Source of the DNA: a virus | Length of the DNA: 48,333 nt | Virus record (IMG/VR): IMGVR_UViG_3300009320_000027 | Coordinates: 1 to 48,333 of that record | Strand: one strand, 5' to 3' | The notes under the pieces: model-generated | What the model saw: only the letters and a program-made list of their open reading frames with translations | What the model was told of the DNA's origin: nothing | Database searches by the model: none | Position numbers and translations under genes: made by a program | In this document: piece by piece, positions 15,613-45,620 of the stretch | How positions within the stretch are numbered: position 1 is the stretch's first letter | Layout: every line of letters starts with the position of its first letter

Positions 15613-16740
15613 ATGGCAATAGCTTGGACTTCTCAAGAAGATGCGTTGCTTGAGGGCTACGCTAAGGGAGAACTCACGCTAGACGAAGTTAGTATACAGA
15701 CAGGCCGCACAAAGCAGGCTGTGTCTGGGAGATCACACAAGAGGGGCCTCACTAAGAGGGTTTGGAATACACGGCTGCCTGCACAAACCATCCAGCAGAT
15801 TTGTGACCTTTACAGACAAGGTGAGACTCTTCAAAAGATTCAGGGTGATACAGGTCTTTCATATCACCAAGTCCGGTGGTGCCTGAAGGTGCAGGGGCTT
15901 TCCGTAGATAGAAGGAGGGCGAGCCTAGAAGCCACAAAAGAGAAACGTCGGGTCTTCAAGGTGGCAGAAATAGAAAAGACGAAGACCCTGTGGGATGGGG
16001 GGATTTCGGAGAAGGATATTGCAGCAGAGCTGGGGTGCTGCAAGCAGGTTTTGAGAAGGCTTGTGTCGGAACAAGGGTGGGCACGCTCTGCTAAGGATTT
16101 GCGGGGGAACCGCAGCCAAAGAAAGGTATTTTCGGAGAAGGAACTTCAACACATGGTACGGGCCTATGTGAGGGGGTTGGACGGATTGACTGTGACAGCC
16201 CGTCACTTTGGAACCTCAAAAAGCACCCTCCGAAGGTGTTTTCAATCGGTTGGAATTGACTTTGGAAATGTGTCCCGAAAGAAGCATTCTGCGCTGCTGA
16301 AGCGGGACTTTCGCAGGGGCAAGAGAGTGATTTCACCCCGCACCGGGCGTGGTATCAGGAGTTACTGTGTGACTCCTTTTCAGGGTCGGGTGCTTTTACG
16401 AAGTCAAGACGAAGCCCGAAGGGTTCGTGAATTGGTGGGGACTGCTTGGTTCTATGAAATAAACCGTTACACACTTTCCACAGGGGGGACATATCTCCCG
16501 GATTTCTGGGAGACAGGACTCCCGGAAGATGTAGTTAGGACAATGTTTTCCAAAAATCCTACTAAACAGGATATTCTGTCTCTTCTTCGGGGAATTCCTC
16601 ATAGGATAGTAGACGTGAAAGGGTGGTGGGGGCCGCAGCATCCTTCGTGGGATAAGATTCAACAGTTTCGGCGGGAATTTCCAAATATATCCTTTCACCT
16701 TCTTGTGAATGATAAGAATGGGGGTTGGTCATGGGAGTAG
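15613..16740 (+). CDS. Free-standing homing endonuclease with HTH repeats and PD-(D/E)XK-type nuclease
   Basis: A 375-residue protein with markedly AT-richer codons than its neighbours. Residues 1-230 contain several helix-turn-helix-like units (for example EDALLEGYAKGELTLDEVS and EKDIAAELGCCKQVLRRLV), suited to recognising a long DNA site. Residues about 280-345 carry a PD-(D/E)XK-like core: LPDFW with Asp297, and VDVKGWW with Asp334 and Lys336. Its first 13 bases (ATGGCAATAGCTT) nearly repeat the start of the virion gene at 16731 (ATGGGAGTAGCTT), and its stop overlaps that start. It therefore seems inserted at that gene's start codon and re-supplies it. The nuclease subfamily is uncertain. 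Confidence 0.7.
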   Translation: MAIAWTSQEDALLEGYAKGELTLDEVSIQTGRTKQAVSGRSHKRGLTKRVWNTRLPAQTIQQICDLYRQGETLQKIQGDTGLSYHQVRWCLKVQGLSVDRRRASLEATKEKRRVFKVAEIEKTKTLWDGGISEKDIAAELGCCKQVLRRLVSEQGWARSAKDLRGNRSQRKVFSEKELQHMVRAYVRGLDGLTVTARHFGTSKSTLRRCFQSVGIDFGNVSRKKHSALLKRDFRRGKRVISPRTGRGIRSYCVTPFQGRVLLRSQDEARRVRELVGTAWFYEINRYTLSTGGTYLPDFWETGLPEDVVRTMFSKNPTKQDILSLLRGIPHRIVDVKGWWGPQHPSWDKIQQFRREFPNISFHLLVNDKNGGWSWE

Positions 16741-17711
16741 CTTTCCAGCCTTCGGAGACGCTTGCGCGGGGCGACCTCGACATCTTTTTGACCAATGCTC
16801 AGGGAAACCCGGCTAACGCGGCAGAGATTTACTTCACCCTCTACTACGTGGACCCCGGCCCGCCCGAGACGGAAGTCCTCATCGGCCCGGCCCAACGGAC
16901 GCCGGTCAACCCGCAAGTGGGGGAGTATTACGCTTCCCTGATGGTGCCGCCCTCCGCGACGCCCGGCACGTACCGCATCAAGTGGACCTTCAAGGAGTTC
17001 CTGACCTCGCCCTACCAGCAGGTGGCGCAGGAGTTCGCTGTCGTGACCACGAGTGCTGTCATCACTCCGGGGTACAACACGGCCCAAGTGGCCATGATTC
17101 GGTCCCTTCGCATCCTGCTCCGCGACCAGAACCCGGACAAGTTCTACCATTTCCGGCCCCCGGAGCATGAAGGGGACATCGGCCAGTACAACCGCATCTT
17201 CGGGCAAATCTGGGAGGACGAGGAGCTGCTGGAATATCTCCAACGCTCCCTCGACTGGTTCAATATGTTCCCGCCGAACACGGCTCACAACATTCTGAAC
17301 CTCACCATGCTGATACAACAGCGCCCGGACTGGCGCACGGCTATCCTCTGGGGAGCCATCGTCCATGCCTGCTTCGCCCTGTCCCTGAACTGGGTTGCGG
17401 ATGAGTTCGACTACAGCATCGGCGGGGTGAGTCTCAGCATCGAGAAGTCGAGCAAGTACGAGAGCTTGAAGCAGAACGCCGAGAGTCAGTCCACGCTGGC
17501 CACCGAGGCCAAGGCCCGGACGGTCAAGTACATCCGTGGGTTGCAACAGCCACGTTACGGGCTGGGTGTTCGTAGTGCATTCGGACCCTACGTTGGCAAG
17601 GGTGTCCTCTCGCCCCGGAACTTCATAGTTTGGGCTAGTGCCTTGTTATCTGGTACAATCATGGCGGAGGTACTCTGCCATGTCAGTAATGTGTCCTCGA
17701 TGTTTGCGTGA
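16731..17711 (+). CDS. Virion protein with Ig-like N-terminal domain, C-terminus possibly altered by insertion
   Basis: A 326-residue protein starting MGVAFQPSETLARGDLDIF. Residues 1-105 form a beta-sandwich (LTNAQGNPANAAEIYFTLYY, then VNPQVGEYYASLMVPP, then TYRIKWTFKEF). A helical region follows, then KYIRGLQQPRYGLGVRSAFG and GVLSPRNF near residue 300. The last 20 or so residues (ending SNVSSMFA) overlap the start of the next homing endonuclease gene and may be a replaced tail. The upstream endonuclease ends inside its start. The gene is thus hemmed in by mobile genes on both sides. Probably a head, neck or tail component. Confidence 0.65.
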   Translation: MGVAFQPSETLARGDLDIFLTNAQGNPANAAEIYFTLYYVDPGPPETEVLIGPAQRTPVNPQVGEYYASLMVPPSATPGTYRIKWTFKEFLTSPYQQVAQEFAVVTTSAVITPGYNTAQVAMIRSLRILLRDQNPDKFYHFRPPEHEGDIGQYNRIFGQIWEDEELLEYLQRSLDWFNMFPPNTAHNILNLTMLIQQRPDWRTAILWGAIVHACFALSLNWVADEFDYSIGGVSLSIEKSSKYESLKQNAESQSTLATEAKARTVKYIRGLQQPRYGLGVRSAFGPYVGKGVLSPRNFIVWASALLSGTIMAEVLCHVSNVSSMFA

Positions 17712-18990
17712 GTTCCCCGGCTCATCTCTAAATGCCCGGCATCTCTCCAAGTGCAGTCCAGAGGCATCCCCCAAGGTGCCGCCTTGTCTGTGCGGCCACG
17801 AGTCAACGTCCCTGACTCAGATGAAACGACACAGGAGGACTTGTGCTGTTTGGCAAAACCGAGACAAGAAGGCCATCCGAGAGTCCCGTAGAAAGAAGAC
17901 AAGCCTTGAACGCTACGGGGTCGAAGATGCCAGCCAGATTCCTGAAGTACAAGCACGCCGGGCTGCTACGAACCGAGAGCGTTTCGGGGCTGACAATCCT
18001 TTTAGCAAAGAGGCTTCAACTTTCGATAAGGTGCAGGCTTCGCTGGAAGGGAAACGGATAGGTTTGAAGGGTTCAGATAATCCTTTTGCCCGACCCGAGG
18101 TGCAGAAAAAGATACGGGCCTACTGGCAACGGAATCCTCAACGAGCTTCAGAGATTCGGGAGCAGACCAAGGCCACAAATCTCGAACGCTACGGAGCGGA
18201 GGAGCCATTGTCTTTGCCCGAGGTCCGTGAACACATCAAGGATACCTGTGAGGCCCTTTACGGGGGGCCAGCGCCATCCTGTGACCCGGAGGTGATGGAG
18301 AGGGCCAGAAAGACCAACCGAGAACGCTATGGAGTGGACTGGACGTGCCAAGACCCCGACATCCGGCGGCGACAACTGGAAACCATGGAGGAAAACTGGG
18401 ATGGGCATTTTTTCGCTTCCGCTGAGGGCAAAGCGATTGTCAGGGCAGCTTTAACGGAACGGTACGGAGTGGAGTCCCCCGGAGCCATCGACGGACATTG
18501 GGAAAAAGCCGTAACGGCCTTTCAGGCCCGTTACGGTGTGGCCCACCCCCTCCAACTAAAGGTGTTTCGGGAGAAGCAAAGAGCTACCAACACCCGCAGG
18601 TACGGTTCTCCCTTTCCGGGGCTGCGGAATAGGGGGCCGAACCTACTGGAACGAAGAGTAGGCCGGATGTGTCCCAGTCTCATCTTTACCGGGGATGGGG
18701 CCTTTTGGAAATTGCTTCCGAAGCTCAACCACTACAAGAATCCTGATTTCATTGTCCCCGGTCCAGACCCGGCCAAGCCCAAGAAGGGTGTCACCAAAGT
18801 TGTGGAGGTGTTCGGAGACTTCTGGCACTCCCGAATATTCACAGGCAAGGCACCCTTTGACCATGAGCAAGAATTGATTGAGGCGTTTCGGGAGATTGGG
18901 ATTACCTGCTTGATTATCTGGGAGTCCGAGGTGAGACAGAACAGGGAGGGCGTGTCAGCAAAACTGTCCGAGTTCGCCCTAGAGAATTGA
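17680..18990 (+). CDS. Homing endonuclease with zinc-finger start, repeated ERYG modules and Vsr-like nuclease
   Basis: A 436-residue protein. The ATG at 17680 has GGCGGAGG nine bases upstream; an earlier in-frame ATG at 17638 lacks one. Residues 1-60 include Cys/His pairs (CPRCLREF, CLCGHES, HRRTC). Then come eight repeats of the form TNxERYG followed by an acidic or polar turn (residues about 75-330), likely DNA-reading modules. The C-terminus has NPDFIV near residue 354 and VVEVFGDFWHS near 377, followed by a helix and CLIIWESE, the layout of Vsr-like (EDxHD) homing nucleases. A TACAAT box at 17654-17659 may drive it. AT-rich codons mark it as mobile. Confidence 0.7.
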   Translation: MSVMCPRCLREFPGSSLNARHLSKCSPEASPKVPPCLCGHESTSLTQMKRHRRTCAVWQNRDKKAIRESRRKKTSLERYGVEDASQIPEVQARRAATNRERFGADNPFSKEASTFDKVQASLEGKRIGLKGSDNPFARPEVQKKIRAYWQRNPQRASEIREQTKATNLERYGAEEPLSLPEVREHIKDTCEALYGGPAPSCDPEVMERARKTNRERYGVDWTCQDPDIRRRQLETMEENWDGHFFASAEGKAIVRAALTERYGVESPGAIDGHWEKAVTAFQARYGVAHPLQLKVFREKQRATNTRRYGSPFPGLRNRGPNLLERRVGRMCPSLIFTGDGAFWKLLPKLNHYKNPDFIVPGPDPAKPKKGVTKVVEVFGDFWHSRIFTGKAPFDHEQELIEAFREIGITCLIIWESEVRQNREGVSAKLSEFALEN

Positions 18991-26289: not shown

Positions 26290-26894
26290 TCAGGAGCGTG
26301 GCTCCCCCGTCCGTAGGTTCCTCTTGGCCCATTGAGCCTTGGCCCGCTCCGACCGAACCCGGCGCTGCTCATCTGTCAGGTTCAGTTTTCGACCCTTCCT
26401 TTGTTTGCTCCAACGGGCGCAAAGTTCAGGGGACCATTCGTGGGTGGCCCGCCAGACCTTCGACATCTTGGCTTTTGCCTCCTTCGATTTCGGGACATCC
26501 CTTTGGGGGCTGCTACCTTCTCCCTCTCAGCGGGGTCTTCAAAACGCTTCTTGGCCTTCTCGCTGAGGGTCAGGCACGTCTTCTCGAAGTCGGGGTTGTA
26601 CTGGGCCGAACCCGAGAGGTTCACACATCCGGGTTTCCCGAAGTTCCGGTCGAGCCACTCCTGCTCCATTTGGATGAGGGCCTCGGGGTCGGCTGCGGTA
26701 GCGATTACTTCCGGCTCAAATCGGTGGCCGTGTTTGTTGAACACCGACTGCATGAAGTCGTTGGGGTGGTTTCCGCTACGGAGCATCCGGCGATGTCGCT
26801 GCCATCTTTCGGGGACGTTTTTCGAGCGGCCCCCGTAGTAGTGGGTGTCCGAAAGGTGGATGACATAAAGGCTTAGTGGGGTAGGATTGTCCAT
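26290..26894 (-). pseudogene. GIY-YIG homing endonuclease with frameshift
   Basis: The 5' part (from 26894) encodes a GIY-YIG-type nuclease: LSLYVIHLSDTHYYGGRS with the variant YVI/YYGG, then ERWQRHRRML and an EWLDRN segment with the catalytic-type Glu. After FEDPAEREK, about residue 125, the open frame becomes basic nonsense and stops at 26382. In a neighbouring frame the sequence continues sensibly as AKAKMSKVWRATHEWSPEL and then KQRKGRKLNLTDEQRRVRSE, a NUMOD-like DNA-binding tail ending at 26290. A one-base indel near the five-G run at 26515-26519 would restore it. The intact product would be about 200 residues. Confidence 0.7.
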
Positions 26895-26993: not shown

Positions 26994-27113
26994 ATGGCAC
27001 GGGATGAACGGGTGTTTTGGGCCTACGTCATTCAGTCTGAGGTGCCCCGAGGCACCAAGCCCGGTTTCTTCTACGTCGGCTGCACCACCGACCCGGCGCG
27101 ACGCCTGCGCCAT
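26994..27113 (+). pseudogene. 5' fragment of a second GIY-YIG endonuclease gene
   Basis: An AGGAGGG site and ATG introduce MARDERVFWAYVIQSE followed by PGFFYVGCTTDPARRLR, clearly the first 40 residues of a GIY-YIG domain. They are close to PGFFYVGMTTDPSRRLR in the minus-strand gene at 27071. After about residue 40 the reading frame loses all similarity because the DNA is now the antisense of that minus-strand gene. The fragment keeps its ribosome site but has lost its catalytic C-terminal part. Confidence 0.65.
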
Positions 27114-28189
27114 TCAAGAGGACTGGGAGGTTTCCATGAGGGGTCCGAAACCCAAGGATGTTGCGGCCCTTCACCCCGGCAAAGTGGGCTATCTTGGAGG
27201 GACCAATGCAGGCGGCCTTGCCCCCGTTTCTGGCGTTTCAGAGCATATTCGGCCCTGAGAGATTCGGAGCGGCTGAAGTAAGGGCCGTACAAAGCCTTAG
27301 CTTCCCAAGGTCGATGTTTAGAGGTGTACTTCCCTCCGTTTGGGTTCCCTGACATTCCATTCATATATAGTCCGTTGTGTTCACGGAGCCGCCTTGAGGG
27401 GTCTGTTGTCATCCCGACGTAGAAAAAGCCGGGGAGTGGTTGTCCTCTGGCTCCTGTTCGGGGTTTAAGGCTTTGGATGACATAGACCCAATAAAGATTT
27501 TTGGGCAGTGCAGGTAGGGTTTTATTGACACAGCCATCTCCTGTGTCCCAACCCCTTTGAATATAGCGGGTTTCTGCTTCCAGTGCCATTTCTTCGCTGG
27601 GGTGGGTTTCCACGATTATGAGGTCTGCGGTGGCAAAATCCTTCTTTTGAAGATTGCTGGTGTGCTGGCACCTTGCAACGAGGCTCTTGTGGGCGTTGAA
27701 GCGAAGGTCAGCATGACAGGAAGACCCCAAATAGTAGGTACTGTCAGAGAAGTTTATTCGATACACACACCATTGTCTTCTGGCTTCCTTCTTTTGTCTG
27801 ATGGAGTCAGCGTTGGCCGCATAATAAGCACGGTCGCGGTGCCGGTTTTTCTTTCTGTATTTCTTGATATATTCTTGGTTCTCCCTTCGCCACTTCCGCG
27901 CATTCTTTTGTACTTTCTTGGGATTTGCTTCTGCATATTTCCGGGAAGCCTCCCTTTTTTTCTCTGGGTCTTTGTAGTAGCTGCGGTGTCTTTGTGCAGC
28001 CACTTTATCCGGGTTGCGTTTTTTCCAATCCCGGTTGTAATCTGCTCGGGCTTTCTTGGTGATTTTTCTATATGCCTTCTCGCATTCTCGGCACTGGCTA
28101 CGAAGACCATCTTTGCTAGAGGATTTTCGGTTGAACTGAGTTTTTTCTTTACGGGTTTTGCAGCAGGAGCAAACTTTGAAATTTTCCAT
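27071..28189 (-). CDS. Fused double GIY-YIG endonuclease with zinc motif
   Basis: A 372-residue protein. Residues 1-40 hold a zinc site (Cys7, Cys10, Cys33, Cys36), then a Lys/Arg-rich helix. A first, degenerate GIY-YIG domain spans about 140-215 (CVYRINFSDSTYYLGSSC, then NAHKSLV). A second, better one spans about 232-330 (YWVYVIQSLKP, then PGFFYVGMTTDPSRRLREHN, then HRPWEAKALYG and SLRAEYALKRQKRG). The final residues run antisense through the start of another GIY-YIG gene, so the C-terminus is probably non-native. Codons are AT-rich. The ribosome site is weak. A homing role is likely. Confidence 0.7.
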   Translation of the reverse strand: MENFKVCSCCKTRKEKTQFNRKSSSKDGLRSQCRECEKAYRKITKKARADYNRDWKKRNPDKVAAQRHRSYYKDPEKKREASRKYAEANPKKVQKNARKWRRENQEYIKKYRKKNRHRDRAYYAANADSIRQKKEARRQWCVYRINFSDSTYYLGSSCHADLRFNAHKSLVARCQHTSNLQKKDFATADLIIVETHPSEEMALEAETRYIQRGWDTGDGCVNKTLPALPKNLYWVYVIQSLKPRTGARGQPLPGFFYVGMTTDPSRRLREHNGLYMNGMSGNPNGGKYTSKHRPWEAKALYGPYFSRSESLRAEYALKRQKRGQGRLHWSLQDSPLCRGEGPQHPWVSDPSWKPPSPLEWRRRRAGSVVQPT

Positions 28190-32672: not shown

Positions 32673-33283
32673 GGGAAGCCCGACTCACCTGCCGCACCCA
32701 GTCCTACCATGTGAAGGACATGCGCCTGAACATGGTCCGGGGCGAGGTTGTCTGGTGTTCGATGGAAGAGGCAGAGGCTTCGAGCGATTTGATGGTCGCT
32801 CGAAGGGCCAAGGCCATCGAGGTGGTCTTTATAGAGAGGACCCGCCAAGAACGCGAATTAGCTCCGGCTCGGCCCGCGCCCGATGTCTTGCCTAAGTCCT
32901 CGAAATCTATATGGAATCCCCCTCCCAGCCGGGGCACGGAGATGCCAACCAAAATCGACGCAGAGGACCTGCTTCGACGGCTGGGTCCGAACCTCCTGAC
33001 CCGCGAGCAGGTGGCCGAGCTGATTCAGCAGCACTTCGCGGACTTCAAGGGCGACATCGGGGCGCTCCTGCGGGAGATTCTGGCCGGGCTGACACTGCCG
33101 CAGGCGGCCCCGGTGGGTACAGTGGGGGAGAAGGTCGGCGGTGATGAGCCTATGTTCATCCCTGAACAGATAATGGGTGACGCCAAGGCCACCATCACCG
33201 TGCAGGAAGAGGAAACTTCCGGTGACGGAGTGGATGCCGCTGCGGACGCCCTGAGAAAAGCTCGGCAAGGAGACAAGACATGA
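32669..33283 (+). CDS. Phage protein of unknown function, TTG start
   Basis: A 204-residue protein starting with TTG in a TTGA overlap. The N-terminal 65 residues (LTCRTQSYHVKDMRLNMVRG, then EEAEASSDLMVARRAKA) form a small beta-plus-helix domain common to phage virion clusters. The middle is Pro-rich. A helical part contains LLRRLGPNLLTREQVAELI, and the acidic C-terminus overlaps the actin-like gene by ATGA. It may be an adaptor in the neck region. No family named. Confidence 0.55.
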   Translation: MREARLTCRTQSYHVKDMRLNMVRGEVVWCSMEEAEASSDLMVARRAKAIEVVFIERTRQERELAPARPAPDVLPKSSKSIWNPPPSRGTEMPTKIDAEDLLRRLGPNLLTREQVAELIQQHFADFKGDIGALLREILAGLTLPQAAPVGTVGEKVGGDEPMFIPEQIMGDAKATITVQEEETSGDGVDAAADALRKARQGDKT

Positions 33284-35409
33284 AGCACAGACCACCAGCA
33301 CCGGCTCCGGCAGAAGCCGCCCCAGCCCCAGCAGTGTTGCCCGGCATCGGGCTTGACATCGGAACCATGAATTTGGTGTCTGCCCGGCGCGGCCCCAAGG
33401 GCGTCGTGACCAAGCGGATGCGCGACCTGTTCATCGACCTGCCCCTGAGCGCGAGGAAGATGCTGAAGCTCTCCAAGGCCAGCAGCTACGTGGAGCGCGA
33501 GGACGATGTGGTCATCCTCGGGGACGCCGCGTTGGAGACAGCCAACGTCTTCGGGAAGGAGCCACGACGCCCTCTGAAGGCGGGCCTCATCTCACCGGAC
33601 GAGTCACAGAGCCTCGAAATCCTCGGCCTCCTCATCAAGGAGGTTCTGGGCAAGCCCGTGGTCGAGAACGAGGTCTGCTACTTCAGCGTTCCGGCGGAAC
33701 CCATCGACCAGCCCGAGAAGGACATCATCTATCATCGGGCCGTGTTCGAGCGCATCGTCAAGGAGTGTGGGTACAAAGGCACCCCCTCGAACGAGGGCAT
33801 GGGCATCATCTACTCGGAGACGGCCAAGGACCAGTTCTCGGGCATTGCCCTGAGCTTCGGGTCCGGCATGACCAACGTCGCCCTCGCCATCAACACCATC
33901 GAGGGACTCACGTTCTCGGTCGCTCGCTGCTTGGCTGAGGGTTTCCCGGTGGTAACGAGACAAGGAGTCACTCGGATAGAGGGTGTATCAGAAGGGGATG
34001 AAGTGCTTGATGCCTTCGGTAAGTTCGTTAAGGTGCGGGAAAAACTGGATAACGGACAACGCACGGAGTTGGTTGAAGTAAAGTTGGAGAACCTTCCCGC
34101 ATTTCCCCATCAAATGACTCCTGACCATCAGGTCTTCGTGAGACGGCGATTTGGATGGGTGTGGGTGAAGGCCGAGAATCTGGTCCCCGGTGATGAGGTG
34201 GGTATCCCAACTATTCAGGCAGAACGGGACAGCGGGTCATGCTACTATTTTGGACGGGAGGGCAGTGATAATATCACCGTGGCAGGGGCTAGGAATTTAG
34301 GTCGATTTTTCGGAGTTTTTTTGGGGGATGGTTCCTGCGGGGGTTCAGCAAAGGATGGCCCCCGTTATGTGCAGATTGCCTTCAATCGCCGGGACCAACA
34401 TCTTGTCGAGAAGTATGCCGAGGTCTGTAATATTTTGTTCCACCGAAAAGTCGAGGTCGTGGATGCTGTGGATGAAAACATTACTCGGCTGAAATTGCAT
34501 GTTACTCCGGTTGCACGGCATCTGCATGAGCGGTTCTATAACGGGAATTGTGAGAAGACATTTCCTCTTGAACTATCAAAGGTTTCTAACCAGACAGCAC
34601 TCGGCATCCTTGAAGGGTTGTTTGATAGTGATGGGCACGAAGAACCCAAACGACTTACGCTCACCAACACCTCGCTTTCTGTGGTGATGTTAGCCCACCA
34701 CATCTTGAATAGATTTGGGGTTGCTCACAGTATTTCGCGGCGTCCCCCACGTTTGGGGGGTGTGAACTCACGGGGGGTTCGCATTGAGGGTCGAAAGGAT
34801 GTCTATGAAGTCCGTGTCCAAGGACACATTGCTGCAACAAAACTCAAGACTTTGTTGACTGTTGAGGGTCATCAAATATTCGACAAATTTTCTGATTTTA
34901 TGGTTTATCGAGTGGTTTCTGCCGAGACAGTGAACGCTACGGTCCGGGTCTACGACCTTCGGGTGGCTTCTAATCACCATTCGTTTGCATCACCCGGCAT
35001 GGTTGTTCACAACTGCGGGGACTGGATTGACAGAGGTGCCGCTCAGTCCACCGGGACCACACAGGCTCGTGCCTGCGCCACTAAGGAGAAGGGCATCGAC
35101 CTCACCAAGCCCAACGGTCGGCTGGAAGAGGCCATCGTGTTCTACTACCGGGCGCTGGGCAACTACGTCCTCGACCAGATTGCGGACCGCTTCAAGGCCA
35201 TCGCGGACCAGTTCTCGCTCTCGAAGCCCATCCCGCTGGTGGTGTCCGGTGGCACGAGCAAGGTCGGGGGCTTCATGCCCTTCTTCACCGAGCTGTTCGA
35301 GGAGCGCCGCAAGCGGTTCCCCATCGAAATCTCGGACATCCGGCACGCGGCGCAGCCGTTGAATGCGGTCGCGCTCGGAATGCTGGTGCAGGCGACCACG
35401 GGGGACTGA
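33280..35409 (+). CDS. Actin-like ATPase (ParM/StbA-type) split by an intein
   Basis: A 709-residue precursor; after splicing about 347 residues. The host protein shows the actin-fold ATP site: phosphate-1 loop GLDIGT at residues 24-29, a second loop ALSFGSGMTNVAL before the intein, and the adenosine motif SGGTSKVGGF after it. The intein (residues 217-578) interrupts just before CGDWIDRGA. Actin-like filaments in phages and plasmids position or segregate DNA, so a filament role is plausible, but the location in a virion block is unusual. CAAGGAG precedes the ATG. Confidence 0.8.
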   Translation: MKHRPPAPAPAEAAPAPAVLPGIGLDIGTMNLVSARRGPKGVVTKRMRDLFIDLPLSARKMLKLSKASSYVEREDDVVILGDAALETANVFGKEPRRPLKAGLISPDESQSLEILGLLIKEVLGKPVVENEVCYFSVPAEPIDQPEKDIIYHRAVFERIVKECGYKGTPSNEGMGIIYSETAKDQFSGIALSFGSGMTNVALAINTIEGLTFSVARCLAEGFPVVTRQGVTRIEGVSEGDEVLDAFGKFVKVREKLDNGQRTELVEVKLENLPAFPHQMTPDHQVFVRRRFGWVWVKAENLVPGDEVGIPTIQAERDSGSCYYFGREGSDNITVAGARNLGRFFGVFLGDGSCGGSAKDGPRYVQIAFNRRDQHLVEKYAEVCNILFHRKVEVVDAVDENITRLKLHVTPVARHLHERFYNGNCEKTFPLELSKVSNQTALGILEGLFDSDGHEEPKRLTLTNTSLSVVMLAHHILNRFGVAHSISRRPPRLGGVNSRGVRIEGRKDVYEVRVQGHIAATKLKTLLTVEGHQIFDKFSDFMVYRVVSAETVNATVRVYDLRVASNHHSFASPGMVVHNCGDWIDRGAAQSTGTTQARACATKEKGIDLTKPNGRLEEAIVFYYRALGNYVLDQIADRFKAIADQFSLSKPIPLVVSGGTSKVGGFMPFFTELFEERRKRFPIEISDIRHAAQPLNAVALGMLVQATTGD
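33928..35013 (+). mobile_element. Intein with LAGLIDADG-type homing domain
   Basis: 362 residues from Cys1 (CLAEGFPVVTRQGV) to the C-terminal VVHN, with Cys as the first extein residue. Splicing blocks are visible: an N-terminal Cys, block B MTPDHQVFV with Thr and His, and the final His-Asn. Two LAGLIDADG-type motifs, FFGVFLGDGSC and LGILEGLFDSDG, keep the acidic residues expected of an active homing nuclease. The intein is clearly AT-richer than the exteins, consistent with recent arrival. Splicing and nuclease activity look intact. Confidence 0.85.
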
Positions 35410-35528
35410 TGAAGTGGACACGGGACATGGAGGACGACTTGTGGGTCTTCCATGGGATTGCCCCGTCCGACCCGGCACCCGAGGAACCCAAGGAGCCACC
35501 GGAGGAGACTGAAGATGAGGAGTCGTGA
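35409..35528 (+). CDS. 39-residue acidic protein of unknown function
   Basis: A small frame starting at the TGATG overlap with the actin-like stop and ending inside the next gene. The product begins MKWTRDMEDDLWVFHG and finishes with a Pro/Glu-rich tail. No good ribosome site is needed because coupling with the previous stop is direct. It is short, so its reality is uncertain, but its overlaps on both sides fit the local gene style. Confidence 0.45.
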   Translation: MKWTRDMEDDLWVFHGIAPSDPAPEEPKEPPEETEDEES

Positions 35529-35901
35529 GTACAGGGTGGTCCGGGTCGGGGACCAGTATTACCTTCAGTTCAAGAGTTGGTTCCACTGGCACTTTGCCTG
35601 CGGATACCACCGGGGCGCTCCGGGCCAGTTCAACTACCAGTACGACAAGTCCGCCAACCCGTTCTTCCCTGCGGATTCCACCTTGAGGGGCATCGAGCAA
35701 GAACGCCAACACCCAACCCTTCCGAGGGTCAGGGTGTGGAACGCCCGGCGGCTGCGCCCGAAACGGCCCGGCCCGATTGCGGAGATATTCGAGATTCAGG
35801 ACATCAAGAAGGCGGTGGCCGAGCATCGGAAGGTGGAGCGCCCAGCAACCGAGCCGTACCCGCTCGTCCGTGACCTCCGGGCTTTGATGGTAGGGGCGTA
35901 A
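35515..35901 (+). CDS. Small phage protein of unknown function
   Basis: A 128-residue protein with GGAGGAG seven bases before its ATG. The sequence is rich in Arg, Tyr and Trp, with a possible strand-rich core (EYRVVRVGDQYYLQFKS, then FHWHFACGYHRG). A C-terminal helix follows (IFEIQDIKKAVAEHR). Its stop overlaps the start codon of the displaced virion gene (TAATG). No family recognised. Confidence 0.6.
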   Translation: MRSREYRVVRVGDQYYLQFKSWFHWHFACGYHRGAPGQFNYQYDKSANPFFPADSTLRGIEQERQHPTLPRVRVWNARRLRPKRPGPIAEIFEIQDIKKAVAEHRKVERPATEPYPLVRDLRALMVGA

Positions 35902-35933
35902 TGTACTTCCAGCTCACAGAGGCAAGGGCGTAA
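35901..35933 (+). pseudogene. Displaced start of the virion gene now at 36746
   Basis: ATG followed by codons for YFQLTEA, then Arg-Ala and a stop. The same peptide, in different codons, reappears at 36725-36745 directly in front of the downstream virion gene. The stop is immediately followed by the ATG of the homing endonuclease, so this mini-frame now serves as a coupling leader for it. Confidence 0.65.
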
Positions 35934-36737
35934 ATGGCTGTCCGCACACATCCTTTGTTGGGCAAGGAAGTCCTTGTGCATCTTTACTTCGAGGAAGGAA
36001 TATCCCTGCGGGGGATAGCCCAGCACACTGGTACAAACTATCGGTTGGTTCGGGATTCTTTCCGAGCTTGCGGGTTGAACTGGAAAAGTAAGTCTGAGGC
36101 CAGACGGGGGCGCAAATGGGATGAAGATACCAAGGCTAAGATTGCCGCCGCTCATCTGGGACAACATGATGCACCAGAGGTGGCAGAAAAGAAGCGGATA
36201 TTTCTCAAAACTGCTGGGGGCCGAGGATGGAATAAGGGGCTGACCTCCCACTCCGATGAAAGGGTGGCCCGACAGAGGGCTGCTGCTGTGAAGGTCATGC
36301 GTACCCCAGAATGGCGGGAACGACGCTCTCGCCAAACAGCGGCGAGGATTCGCAAGGGGGGCTACTGGGAGCGGGGGTACTGTGACACTTCCAAGGAAGG
36401 CCGCCTCTATTATATGTCTGGGTGGGAACAGCGTCGGTGGTTAGAGTTGGACGGAGATTCAGAGGTTACGTCTTTCACTCGGCATCCTTGTCAGGTGCCT
36501 TATCTTTGGGAGGGTGTCCAACATCTGTACCTTCCAGATGTTCTTATCCAGTACCGAGACGGGACCAAAGTGTTGGAAGAAATAAAGCCCTATTTAGTTG
36601 CACAAGACGCCCGCAAGAAGGAGAACAGATTAGCTGCAAAACTTGTCGCAGGACGAGCTTATGCTCTGGCACGGGGCTGGGTGTGGCGTATGTTCTCGTA
36701 TGATGGGGAAGGGGGTGGGCCATTTATTTTCAGCTAA
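35934..36737 (+). CDS. Homing endonuclease with NUMOD-like region and TnsA-like PD-(D/E)XK nuclease
   Basis: A 267-residue protein with AT-rich codons. Residues 1-60 hold an HTH-like unit (EEGISLRGIAQHTGTNYRLV). A GRGWNKGLT motif near residue 100 is NUMOD3-like. The C-terminal part has SGWEQRRWLEL, then YLPDVLI with Asp202 and EEIKP with Glu216 and Lys218, which fits a TnsA-like restriction fold. The ATG is adjacent to the stop of the displaced start of the target gene. The 3' end carries a re-coded copy of that start. Confidence 0.7.
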   Translation: MAVRTHPLLGKEVLVHLYFEEGISLRGIAQHTGTNYRLVRDSFRACGLNWKSKSEARRGRKWDEDTKAKIAAAHLGQHDAPEVAEKKRIFLKTAGGRGWNKGLTSHSDERVARQRAAAVKVMRTPEWRERRSRQTAARIRKGGYWERGYCDTSKEGRLYYMSGWEQRRWLELDGDSEVTSFTRHPCQVPYLWEGVQHLYLPDVLIQYRDGTKVLEEIKPYLVAQDARKKENRLAAKLVAGRAYALARGWVWRMFSYDGEGGGPFIFS

Positions 36738-36745
36738 CGGAAGCC

Positions 36746-37921
36746 ATGAAGCGGCGCTTCATCCACGAGCTGCGCCAATACTGGCAGTTCGACCCCAAGT
36801 TCCGGGACATCGTGGACTCCATTCAGGGGAAATTCTCCTTCGAGGAGCGGCCCCAGCGTGGCATCGTGGTGAAGGCTTCCGGCGGCAGCCGGGTGGACCT
36901 CTCCGCCGACAACTACGTGGGGATGATTCACAGCTTCCCCTTCCTGACCAAAGTCGCCCAGTACCCCGGCGTGGCTATCGAGTGGGTCCGCGAGGACGCG
37001 GTGGCCATCCAGAAGAACAACGGGATATTCCCCTCGTTGCCCGGCGTCTACTTCATCGAGCTGACCGAGGACACCGAATACTACGTGGACCCCCTCTACG
37101 ACGTGCAGGGGGAGATTGTCCTGATGTCGGACACCGTGACAGGGCAGCTTCAGAACGCACCTCTTACCGGGACGCTCTGCCTGTTCGAGATGCCCGCAGG
37201 CTACCAGTTGTTCGAGGGGACCAACTACACCTTGACTCTGGACGCCCAAGGCAAGCCCACGGGAGAAATCATCTTGGTGCAGCCCTTGACGGGAGGCCGC
37301 TCCCTGTCGGCGGACTATCGTCATCCCGGTGTGAGCCAAGGCCCCATCACCCTGTACCCCGGCTACGCCAACAACAAAGTCATCCCCGGCGTGGTGCTGG
37401 CGTTCGGGCGCAAGAACGAGAAGGGCGACCGCATGGCTGTCGTGGTCCAGAACCGGCGGCTGCCGTCAGCTCTGGAATACGGGGGCAAGTGGCAGCTCTC
37501 CATGGAAGTCGAGGTGATGGCCCGCGATGTGTATGACCAGATGCAACTGCTGGACGAGTCCGTCATCTACATCTGGGGAGTCCTGCGGTCCTACTTGGCC
37601 GACGAGGGCATCCACATCATCGACATCTCCCTCGGCGGCGAGGCCGAGGAGGTCTACGACGAGACAGGGGACGACTACTTCTACACGGGCAATTTCTCTC
37701 TCACGGTCGAAACGGAATGGTCCATCCATGTCCCCCTGAACGTGAAGATGCGGAGGGCGGCCCCGCTCACCCAGCAGCAGGCACAGCTCATGGCCGCCAT
37801 GACCGATACCGAGGTAGCCCAGCAGCAGAACGACATCAGGATGCTGGAAGACCTTGGCCTAGAGCGGCTCTCTGACCCGTATTTCAGCGAGCGGATACGC
37901 ACCTACGAGGTGATTCGGTGA
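36746..37921 (+). CDS. Virion structural protein with interrupted start, possible ATT initiation
   Basis: A 391-residue protein beginning MKRRFIHELRQYWQF at the first ATG. In the same frame upstream, codons from 36722 read ATT then YFQLTEA, matching the displaced start at 35901. AAGGGGG lies seven bases before that ATT, while the ATG has only a poor site. True initiation may therefore be at the ATT, giving 399 residues. The body is beta-rich with a conserved-looking segment RVDLSADNYVGMIHSF and a helical end. It probably belongs to the neck or baseplate. Confidence 0.65.
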   Translation: MKRRFIHELRQYWQFDPKFRDIVDSIQGKFSFEERPQRGIVVKASGGSRVDLSADNYVGMIHSFPFLTKVAQYPGVAIEWVREDAVAIQKNNGIFPSLPGVYFIELTEDTEYYVDPLYDVQGEIVLMSDTVTGQLQNAPLTGTLCLFEMPAGYQLFEGTNYTLTLDAQGKPTGEIILVQPLTGGRSLSADYRHPGVSQGPITLYPGYANNKVIPGVVLAFGRKNEKGDRMAVVVQNRRLPSALEYGGKWQLSMEVEVMARDVYDQMQLLDESVIYIWGVLRSYLADEGIHIIDISLGGEAEEVYDETGDDYFYTGNFSLTVETEWSIHVPLNVKMRRAAPLTQQQAQLMAAMTDTEVAQQQNDIRMLEDLGLERLSDPYFSERIRTYEVIR

Positions 37922-44054: not shown

Positions 44055-45620
44055 ATGATTCAATGTCCTTTCTGTCCCCATCAGGCTATTAATCAACGTG
44101 GTCTTGCCACTCATTTCAGGCACCAGTCCGATACACATCCTGACTACCAGAAGTGGCGGGAAGACCAGAGATGGGCAGGCAAGACAGAGGACGATGACTT
44201 CGTGGTTTGCCGGGTGTGCGGGCATAAGGCGGCAACGCTGGCTCGACACCTGAAAGCCGCGCACGGAATCACTGCGGATGTCTACAGGGCCGAGTACGGC
44301 CCTGATGTACTGATACGTCCATCCAAAGTGACTGCTAAACGAAGTGCTGCTATTCGGAACCGACAAGGTGGGTTCGGCAAGGGCGCAACCAAGGTGGTTG
44401 AGTGTCCAGAGTGCCACACACCCCATGAGGTTTCCAAGTTCCTTGTTCTTGGGATACACGACCCCCGATGCCCTGATTGCAAGCAGAAAGCAGAAAACGC
44501 CCGGTGGGAAGGTAAGACAGAACCCGAGGACTACGTGACCTGCCTCGATTGCGGTCATCGGGCGGAGAACCTGACATCCCACATCCGACACGCCCATCCT
44601 GATTACCGGGCAAGACACCCAAAGGCTTCGATAGTTGCCTTGAATTCAGCGGTACGGGACAAGTCCACATTGCAGGGTCGGGTTCTTTCTGACGGGACCA
44701 AGCAGAAGATGTCCGAGAACGCGGGACGTTGGAACGCTGGTTTGACCAAAGAAACTGATGCACGGATAGCAGCCGGGGCGGAGAAGATGCAAGGCAAGGT
44801 TCCATGGGCAAAGGGACATACGGCGCAGGAAGACCCTCGGCTGGCAGAGACAGCCCGCAAGCTCAAGTTCTACGTAGGGGAGAATCGCCCATGGGATAAC
44901 GGGCTGGCTGCCAATTTGACGCTCAAGGATTTCGAGCCTTTTATGGACGTTGAAGGTCGGGTAGACCACCAAAAAGTGGTCGAGGCCACGGGGGTTTCTT
45001 GGAAGACGGTGCGGGGTTACATTGCAGACCTTGGGCTGGCCCAGACGAAACGGTACAAAGAAGAAGCCGCAGAAAGCCAAACCGTCCGACTTGCTAAGGA
45101 AACCTTGGAGCAATTCAAACTGGGTAACGGCAAGGTGAGTATTGGCAAGGCCATGTCGGTTACAGGACACACTTTCGGGGTCATAAAACGGGAGTGCCGA
45201 CGACACGGCCTGCCCACCTTTCACAGGCACATCAGACAAACGCTTTGTTTGGACGCGGTGTCGGCAGCCTTGGGGGACATCCCCTACCGGATGGAATGGG
45301 AGTCTTTGAGGTTTGTGAACCCACCGACAGGGCATCGTTTCCGATTCGACGGGTACTTCCTCGACATTGGTCTTATTGTCGAGTTCCAAGGTCATCAGCA
45401 CTACACCTTCCCCAACGCCTTCATGGTGAATGAGTCCTATTTGCCCGAATACGAGGCCCTTCGGGAACGTGACCGGATTAAGAAATCCCTTATCGAGGCA
45501 GCTCCCGACCTGACCTACTTTGAGGTCCGCGAGGACGAGCCTTACACAGATGCCATGTACCTGCGAGGAAGACTCACCCAGTTAGGTGTTTCACCCCCGT
45601 CTTCGGTATCTCATTTATAG
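44055..45620 (+). CDS. Zinc-finger homing endonuclease with EDxHD/PD-(D/E)XK-type nuclease
   Basis: A 521-residue protein. Residues 1-190 hold four Cys/His fingers (CPFCPHQAINQRGLATH, CRVCGHKAATLARHLKAAH, CPECHTPHE with CPDC, CLDCGHRAENLTSHIRHAH). A NUMOD-like region follows (GRWNAGLTKETD near residue 230). HTH-like stretches come next, then the nuclease at about 425-500: RFRFDGYF, LIVEFQGHQHY, then a helix with RDRIKKSLIEAA. Asp and Glu of the core are present. It has its own promoter and sits between the sheath gene and the next virion gene. Codons are less GC-rich. Confidence 0.75.
   Translation: MIQCPFCPHQAINQRGLATHFRHQSDTHPDYQKWREDQRWAGKTEDDDFVVCRVCGHKAATLARHLKAAHGITADVYRAEYGPDVLIRPSKVTAKRSAAIRNRQGGFGKGATKVVECPECHTPHEVSKFLVLGIHDPRCPDCKQKAENARWEGKTEPEDYVTCLDCGHRAENLTSHIRHAHPDYRARHPKASIVALNSAVRDKSTLQGRVLSDGTKQKMSENAGRWNAGLTKETDARIAAGAEKMQGKVPWAKGHTAQEDPRLAETARKLKFYVGENRPWDNGLAANLTLKDFEPFMDVEGRVDHQKVVEATGVSWKTVRGYIADLGLAQTKRYKEEAAESQTVRLAKETLEQFKLGNGKVSIGKAMSVTGHTFGVIKRECRRHGLPTFHRHIRQTLCLDAVSAALGDIPYRMEWESLRFVNPPTGHRFRFDGYFLDIGLIVEFQGHQHYTFPNAFMVNESYLPEYEALRERDRIKKSLIEAAPDLTYFEVREDEPYTDAMYLRGRLTQLGVSPPSSVSHL

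Follow-up and report, generated by a model that had tools for sequence, protein, structure and literature searches.

A free-standing homing endonuclease has very probably inserted at the start of a predicted tail-terminator gene of a phage, carrying with it a re-coded version of the gene start that it displaced, and the terminator gene itself seems to tolerate near-cognate start codons. The evidence comes from the window, that is, the whole stretch of 48,333 nucleotides analysed (IMG/VR virus record IMGVR_UViG_3300009320_000027), and from the same site in other phages, all the sequences compared being metagenomic contigs. An earlier note on this DNA had proposed that an endonuclease displaced the start of a virion gene and re-supplied it in other codons, possibly with a rare ATT start, an interpretation that is partly supported by what follows.

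The twin gene starts flanking the endonuclease are present in the window exactly as that note had described them. The upstream gene (35521..35901, + strand, frame from 35521, its listed open reading frame opening at 35452) ends with a TAA (35899-35901) that shares bases with the ATG at 35901 (TAATG), where the target gene originally began. This displaced original start, or copy 1 (ATG plus YFQLTEA, 35901..35924, +), encodes the peptide that is the native start of uninterrupted alleles, but now opens a 10-residue leader, MYFQLTEARA-stop (ATG TAC TTC CAG CTC ACA GAG GCA AGG GCG TAA). The end of the leader, AGG GCG TAA (35925..35933, +), abuts the ATG of the endonuclease at 35934, a junction that, from its layout, probably works by termination-reinitiation. 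The homing-type endonuclease (267 aa, 35934..36737, +; assigned by Pfam, TnsA fold and alignment) has its stop codon, TAA 36735-36737, supplied by the CTAAC of copy 2, the re-supplied and re-coded gene start (36722..36745, +). Copy 2 reads ATT(36722) TAT TTT CAG CTA ACG GAA GCC, continues with ATG(36746) AAG CGG and thus encodes (I/M)YFQLTEAMK in frame with the MKRRF of a 391-codon open reading frame, which makes a gene of 399 codons from ATT (36722..37921, +), identified as the tail terminator by structure match. A Shine-Dalgarno-like stretch for the re-supplied start, GGAAGGGGGTGGGCC (36707..36721, +), lies within the C-terminal codons of the endonuclease, and GGGGAAGGGGGTGGGCC precedes ATT 36722. 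Upstream, the ATT frame is closed by TGA 36701, and there is no ATG, GTG or TTG between this stop and the internal ATG at codon 9 (36746..36748, +), the rival start. Since an identical ATT is found in L002 (3300013120_000375), a second public contig, a base-calling error is improbable.

Six of the seven codons shared by the two copies differ, every change being silent and at a third position, and for six random substitutions in 21 bases the probability of an unaltered peptide is about 5e-6. When copies 1 and 2 are compared over 26 codons in four lineages (window, L006, L090 and L240), 14 codons differ silently, one changes the amino acid and 11 are identical, with 3, 1 and 15 differences at first, second and third positions. 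All four lineages therefore have a duplicate gene end with mainly silent differences and retain the original. L050 and L055 did not serve as a clean empty/filled pair in this respect, the divergence of L050 being too great for any excess of re-coding to show.

The uninterrupted allele that the note had expected in relatives exists: MYFQL..KRR, with small variations, occurs in L003, L004, L009, L010, L030 and L050, and alleles free of the endonuclease are found in L003, L004, L010, L030, L050 and many others. IMG/VR relatives such as L003 and L004 start at the MYFQL residue, with ATG or GTG, and not at the internal ATG.

What had been termed a virion gene can now be named more precisely, as its product has a predicted tail-terminator fold. 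The AlphaFold2 model (pLDDT 82.5, 53 aligned proteins) matches the phage 812 neck (Z 14.6), the E217 gateway (14.0), T5 p142 (13.8), lambda gpU (12.3) and T4 gp15 (9.8); for solved terminators and neck proteins matched at Z 12-14.6, 116-173 residues are aligned. Residue 1 of the model pairs with residue 1 or 2 in several solved terminator chains, and the first helix covers residues 2-21, which argues that the N-terminus belongs to the predicted terminator fold.

The main alternative is that the terminator of the window starts by re-initiation at the internal ATG 36746, the YFQLTEA of copy 2 being an untranslated leftover. Near the start, this ATG is the one in-frame canonical codon, it lies 8 nt past TAA 36737, and L009 and L090 also have a Met at residue 9. 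Nevertheless, this reading is unlikely, on several counts. All 141 clusters of the terminator gene set (defined at 97% identity) align from the residue before Y/F, whereas just 12 of them have Met at residue 9; codons 2-8 of the window differ from those of L009 only silently; and dropping eight residues would truncate the N-terminal helix of the predicted fold. Moreover, L240 keeps the ATT and the overlap with the endonuclease but has no ATG there (it does have TTG at residues 5 and 9), and many relatives with ATT or ATC lack any canonical codon over a stretch of 13-72 residues. Conservation thus argues for full-length translation from ATT 36722, that is, for initiation at AUU.

Near-cognate starts are held to be very rare in bacteria and phages, infC and sigR being the usual examples. 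In the terminator gene they are recurrent. Start codons in the 141 clusters are ATG (65), GTG (40), TTG (12), ATC (12), ATT (10) and ACG (2), so that an apparent near-cognate start is found in 24 of 141, and this state requires 21 changes on the tree, 19 of them forced by well supported branches, counts that rest on quick trees. In 20 of the 24 (the window and 19 others) there is no canonical in-frame codon upstream that would keep the conserved N-terminus, whereas one does exist in L058, L084, L149 and L183; in some, such as L035 and L183, the next canonical codon downstream comes only after more than 60 residues. In L178 and L201 the terminator apparently starts at ACG, with a CTG immediately before it in L178. 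Control genes at the same loci are near-cognate in only 1-2 of about 188 cases: starts are canonical in 45/45 volactin genes, 63/63 genes of the 1770-aa type, 21/21 of the 32022 type and all but one or two fmdB-like genes (the set up486, with wrong frames, was left out). The fmdB-like gene, which sits just after the terminator, has an apparent ATT start in L056 and ATC in L017 (with AGGAGGA upstream). In three contigs totalling 258 kb, the terminator is the sole gene with a best-placed ATT or ATC start and no canonical codon within three codons, and genome-wide use of such starts can be ruled out, since it is limited to the terminator save for the two fmdB-like cases. Searches for an IF3 gene in 12 contigs gave no match, and neither the window nor three other contigs had tRNA genes.

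The ATT start predicted by the note recurs in an independent lineage, L240, which conserves it with the same endonuclease overlap, but the displaced gene is not alone in having such a start. Indeed, no endonuclease or remnant was detected in 19 of the 24 near-cognate clusters. Near-cognate starts are found in 5/10 alleles with an endonuclease or remnant vs 19/131 others (one-sided P 0.013, groups set post hoc), and in 3/6 alleles with an intact or cut-short endonuclease (P 0.06, groups likewise set post hoc), a modest association. The Shine-Dalgarno match is longer in near-cognate alleles (mean 5.33 vs 4.02 for ATG, P 8e-5). ATT initiation thus appears to be a recurrent trait specific to this gene, enriched beside the endonuclease but not created by its insertion.

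Relatives of the endonuclease (38-64% identical) lie immediately upstream of the target gene in five further lineages, L006/L007, L088-L091, L055, L058 and L240, and the family, as in the window, carries a re-coded gene start. In L006/L007, L088-L091 and L240, the native start (copy 1) is followed by the endonuclease relative and then by the re-supplied start. In L055, the native GTG serves as the first codon of the endonuclease, and the re-supplied start is the only copy to be seen, because the original N-terminal codons are gone; L058 is truncated by the end of its contig. Coupling of endonuclease expression looks different from lineage to lineage, with (i) a leader and a stop-start in the window, (ii) what looks like a longer leader in L006, (iii) an apparent in-frame fusion in L090 and L240 and (iv) seemingly direct use of the start codon in L055. 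The distribution is patchy, since the closest relatives of the gene (L009, L015, L030 and L050) have no detectable intact endonuclease. Remnants in L280 (middle missing), L224 (last 60 aa kept), L235 and L242 (traces of 17 and 11 aa) mark apparent stages of its decay. The L224 remnant sits immediately after the end of another gene, and a large deletion therefore took the genes that usually intervene. L009 and L235 share a near-identical 38-nt junction (0.87 vs 0.67 in the codons right after), the sole such pair among 9870, which suggests that L009 carries a scar too.

The two trees disagree. In the endonuclease tree, the window and L240 are sisters (100/99) with 64% identity, but their target genes sit in different clades and a forced pairing is rejected (p-AU 1e-40), a discordance that reveals horizontal movement of the endonuclease relative to its host gene; the endonuclease tree holding L006 with L240 has p-AU 0.0097. 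In both the window and L240 the end of the endonuclease (..FSYDGEGG..) overlaps the ATT start, and GAAGGGGGTG, part of the Shine-Dalgarno-like stretch, is shared. Since sister endonucleases in different target-gene clades both carry the ATT junction, it is probable that element and replacement start travelled together, but the codons of copy 2 differ between the two, and what they visibly share is just part of the junction. A very improbable account is that the gene start was simply duplicated in tandem, the endonuclease being a passenger and the silent differences due to drift under coding constraint. This would explain why the same peptide is encoded on both sides of the endonuclease, but not why the gene tree is contradicted by the endonuclease tree, nor why several distant lineages have the unit, with endonuclease relatives, at the same codon positions.

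The window endonuclease has a C-terminal TnsA-like PD-(D/E)xK domain (Pfam PF08722, 5e-10), its model matches a TnsA structure over 110 residues (Z 10.6), and E165, D202 and E216-x-K218 are invariant across aligned homologs, all of which points to an intact nuclease domain with its catalytic residues. The model, built on three sequences, is only fair overall (pLDDT 70); the N-terminal part shows HTH-like helices. NUMOD3 is a DNA-binding module of homing nucleases, and the L055 homolog scores for it as well. Comparison with known phages by megablast found nothing, and a protein search of the Phages collection gave a weak endonuclease match in Bacillus phage Moonbeam and one unannotated relative of the terminator. 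That the endonuclease sits within a spliced-out group I intron or an intein has a negligible chance of being right, for although inteins do occur elsewhere in the same phages (in the volactin gene), 35400-37200 has no Rfam match, the endonuclease has no intein domain and, with stop codons and duplicated codons present, splicing is unnecessary.

The window is crowded with mobile endonucleases. At 33280-35409, a volactin-like actin homolog (PF25216, 3e-67) is broken by a LAGLIDADG intein that the volactin genes of L003, L006, L009 and L090 lack, and there are five further nuclease-like or DNA-binding open reading frames, 15613-16740, 17683-18990, 26382-26894 (-), 27071-28189 (-) and 44055-45620 (HTH, DUF7487, two GIY-YIG and a ROS/MUCR zinc finger). 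No displaced gene end was seen beside two further nuclease genes of the window, where the proteins concerned (16725-17711 and the 1770-aa one) both reach their natural ends. In L099-L104 (G006, G012), the homolog of the 16725-17711 gene is in three pieces; there is a gap at the first break, and the second holds an intein-like sequence. Neither Pfam nor PHROGs supported a 'sheath' label for the downstream 1770-aa gene.

The preferred reading, insertion by homing, would then run as follows. A free-standing homing endonuclease would target the first codons of the tail-terminator gene in tailed, partly jumbo, phages, insert at codons 1-8 and so split its original target. It would commandeer the ribosome-binding site and start codon of the gene, and would be expressed either through translational coupling to a short leader or as an in-frame fusion. 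Its 3' end would bring a new Shine-Dalgarno, a start codon (ATT in the window and L240) and synonymous codons 2-8, restoring the N-terminus. With almost all its third positions changed, the re-coded copy should escape self-cleavage, and loss of cleavage by this route is plausible. Tail terminators are hexamers. Near-cognate starts are probably tolerated because few copies of the product would be needed and a strong Shine-Dalgarno would compensate. There is perhaps an even chance that the terminator repeatedly evolved AUU, AUC or ACG with a strong Shine-Dalgarno as a low-copy translational throttle, the endonuclease family spreading re-coded starts, ATT included, that are left as scars after its decay.

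The closest parallels are mobile open reading frames of fungal mitochondria, which bring foreign C-terminal gene ends to atp6, atp9, cox2 and nad3 (Beaudet et al. 2013, PMC3630166), Allomyces atp6 being the first such case (PMC3630166). As in the window, an endonuclease open reading frame lies near a gene end and a largely silent duplicate replaces the native end, but the end replaced in our phages is the 5' one, with start codon and ribosome-binding site, and the enzyme is a TnsA-like PD-(D/E)xK rather than a LAGLIDADG or GIY-YIG nuclease (PMC3630166). In the available text of one account, the free-standing mobE and seg genes of T4 are likewise intronless, lie between conserved genes and harness upstream expression, with UAAUGA-type coupling; T4 endonucleases are, however, intergenic or split genes into two polypeptides, and that text describes no re-coded replacement start for them (PMC2988022). 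The hidden HNH insertion of ShiLan, as far as the available part of its description goes, is also a homing insertion that is neither intron nor intein and has overlapping frames, but it is read through in frame with its host gene, whereas the window element replaces a gene start (PMC11855218). As for the start codon, the AUU/AUC starts of infC (in E. coli and Streptomyces) and the GUC of Streptomyces sigR are held down by IF3 (PMC5472188). They resemble the terminator in having a near-cognate start on one particular gene, where it lowers translation, but they are cellular genes, as opposed to a phage structural gene that has changed its start codon about 20 times by the quick trees (PMC5472188). 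In the open-access literature, no described phage precedent was found.

These findings suggest that a selfish nuclease can settle in the first codons of an essential open reading frame with no need of splicing, paying with a rewritten start. For this endonuclease site there are alleles of four stages: empty, filled, decaying and scar. To our knowledge, near-cognate start codons are ignored by gene callers, and annotation pipelines will truncate the terminator wherever ATT, ATC or ACG is used. The terminator family, with about 20 apparently independent start changes (again on quick trees), offers a natural allele series for testing why and how a phage gene would come to start in this way.
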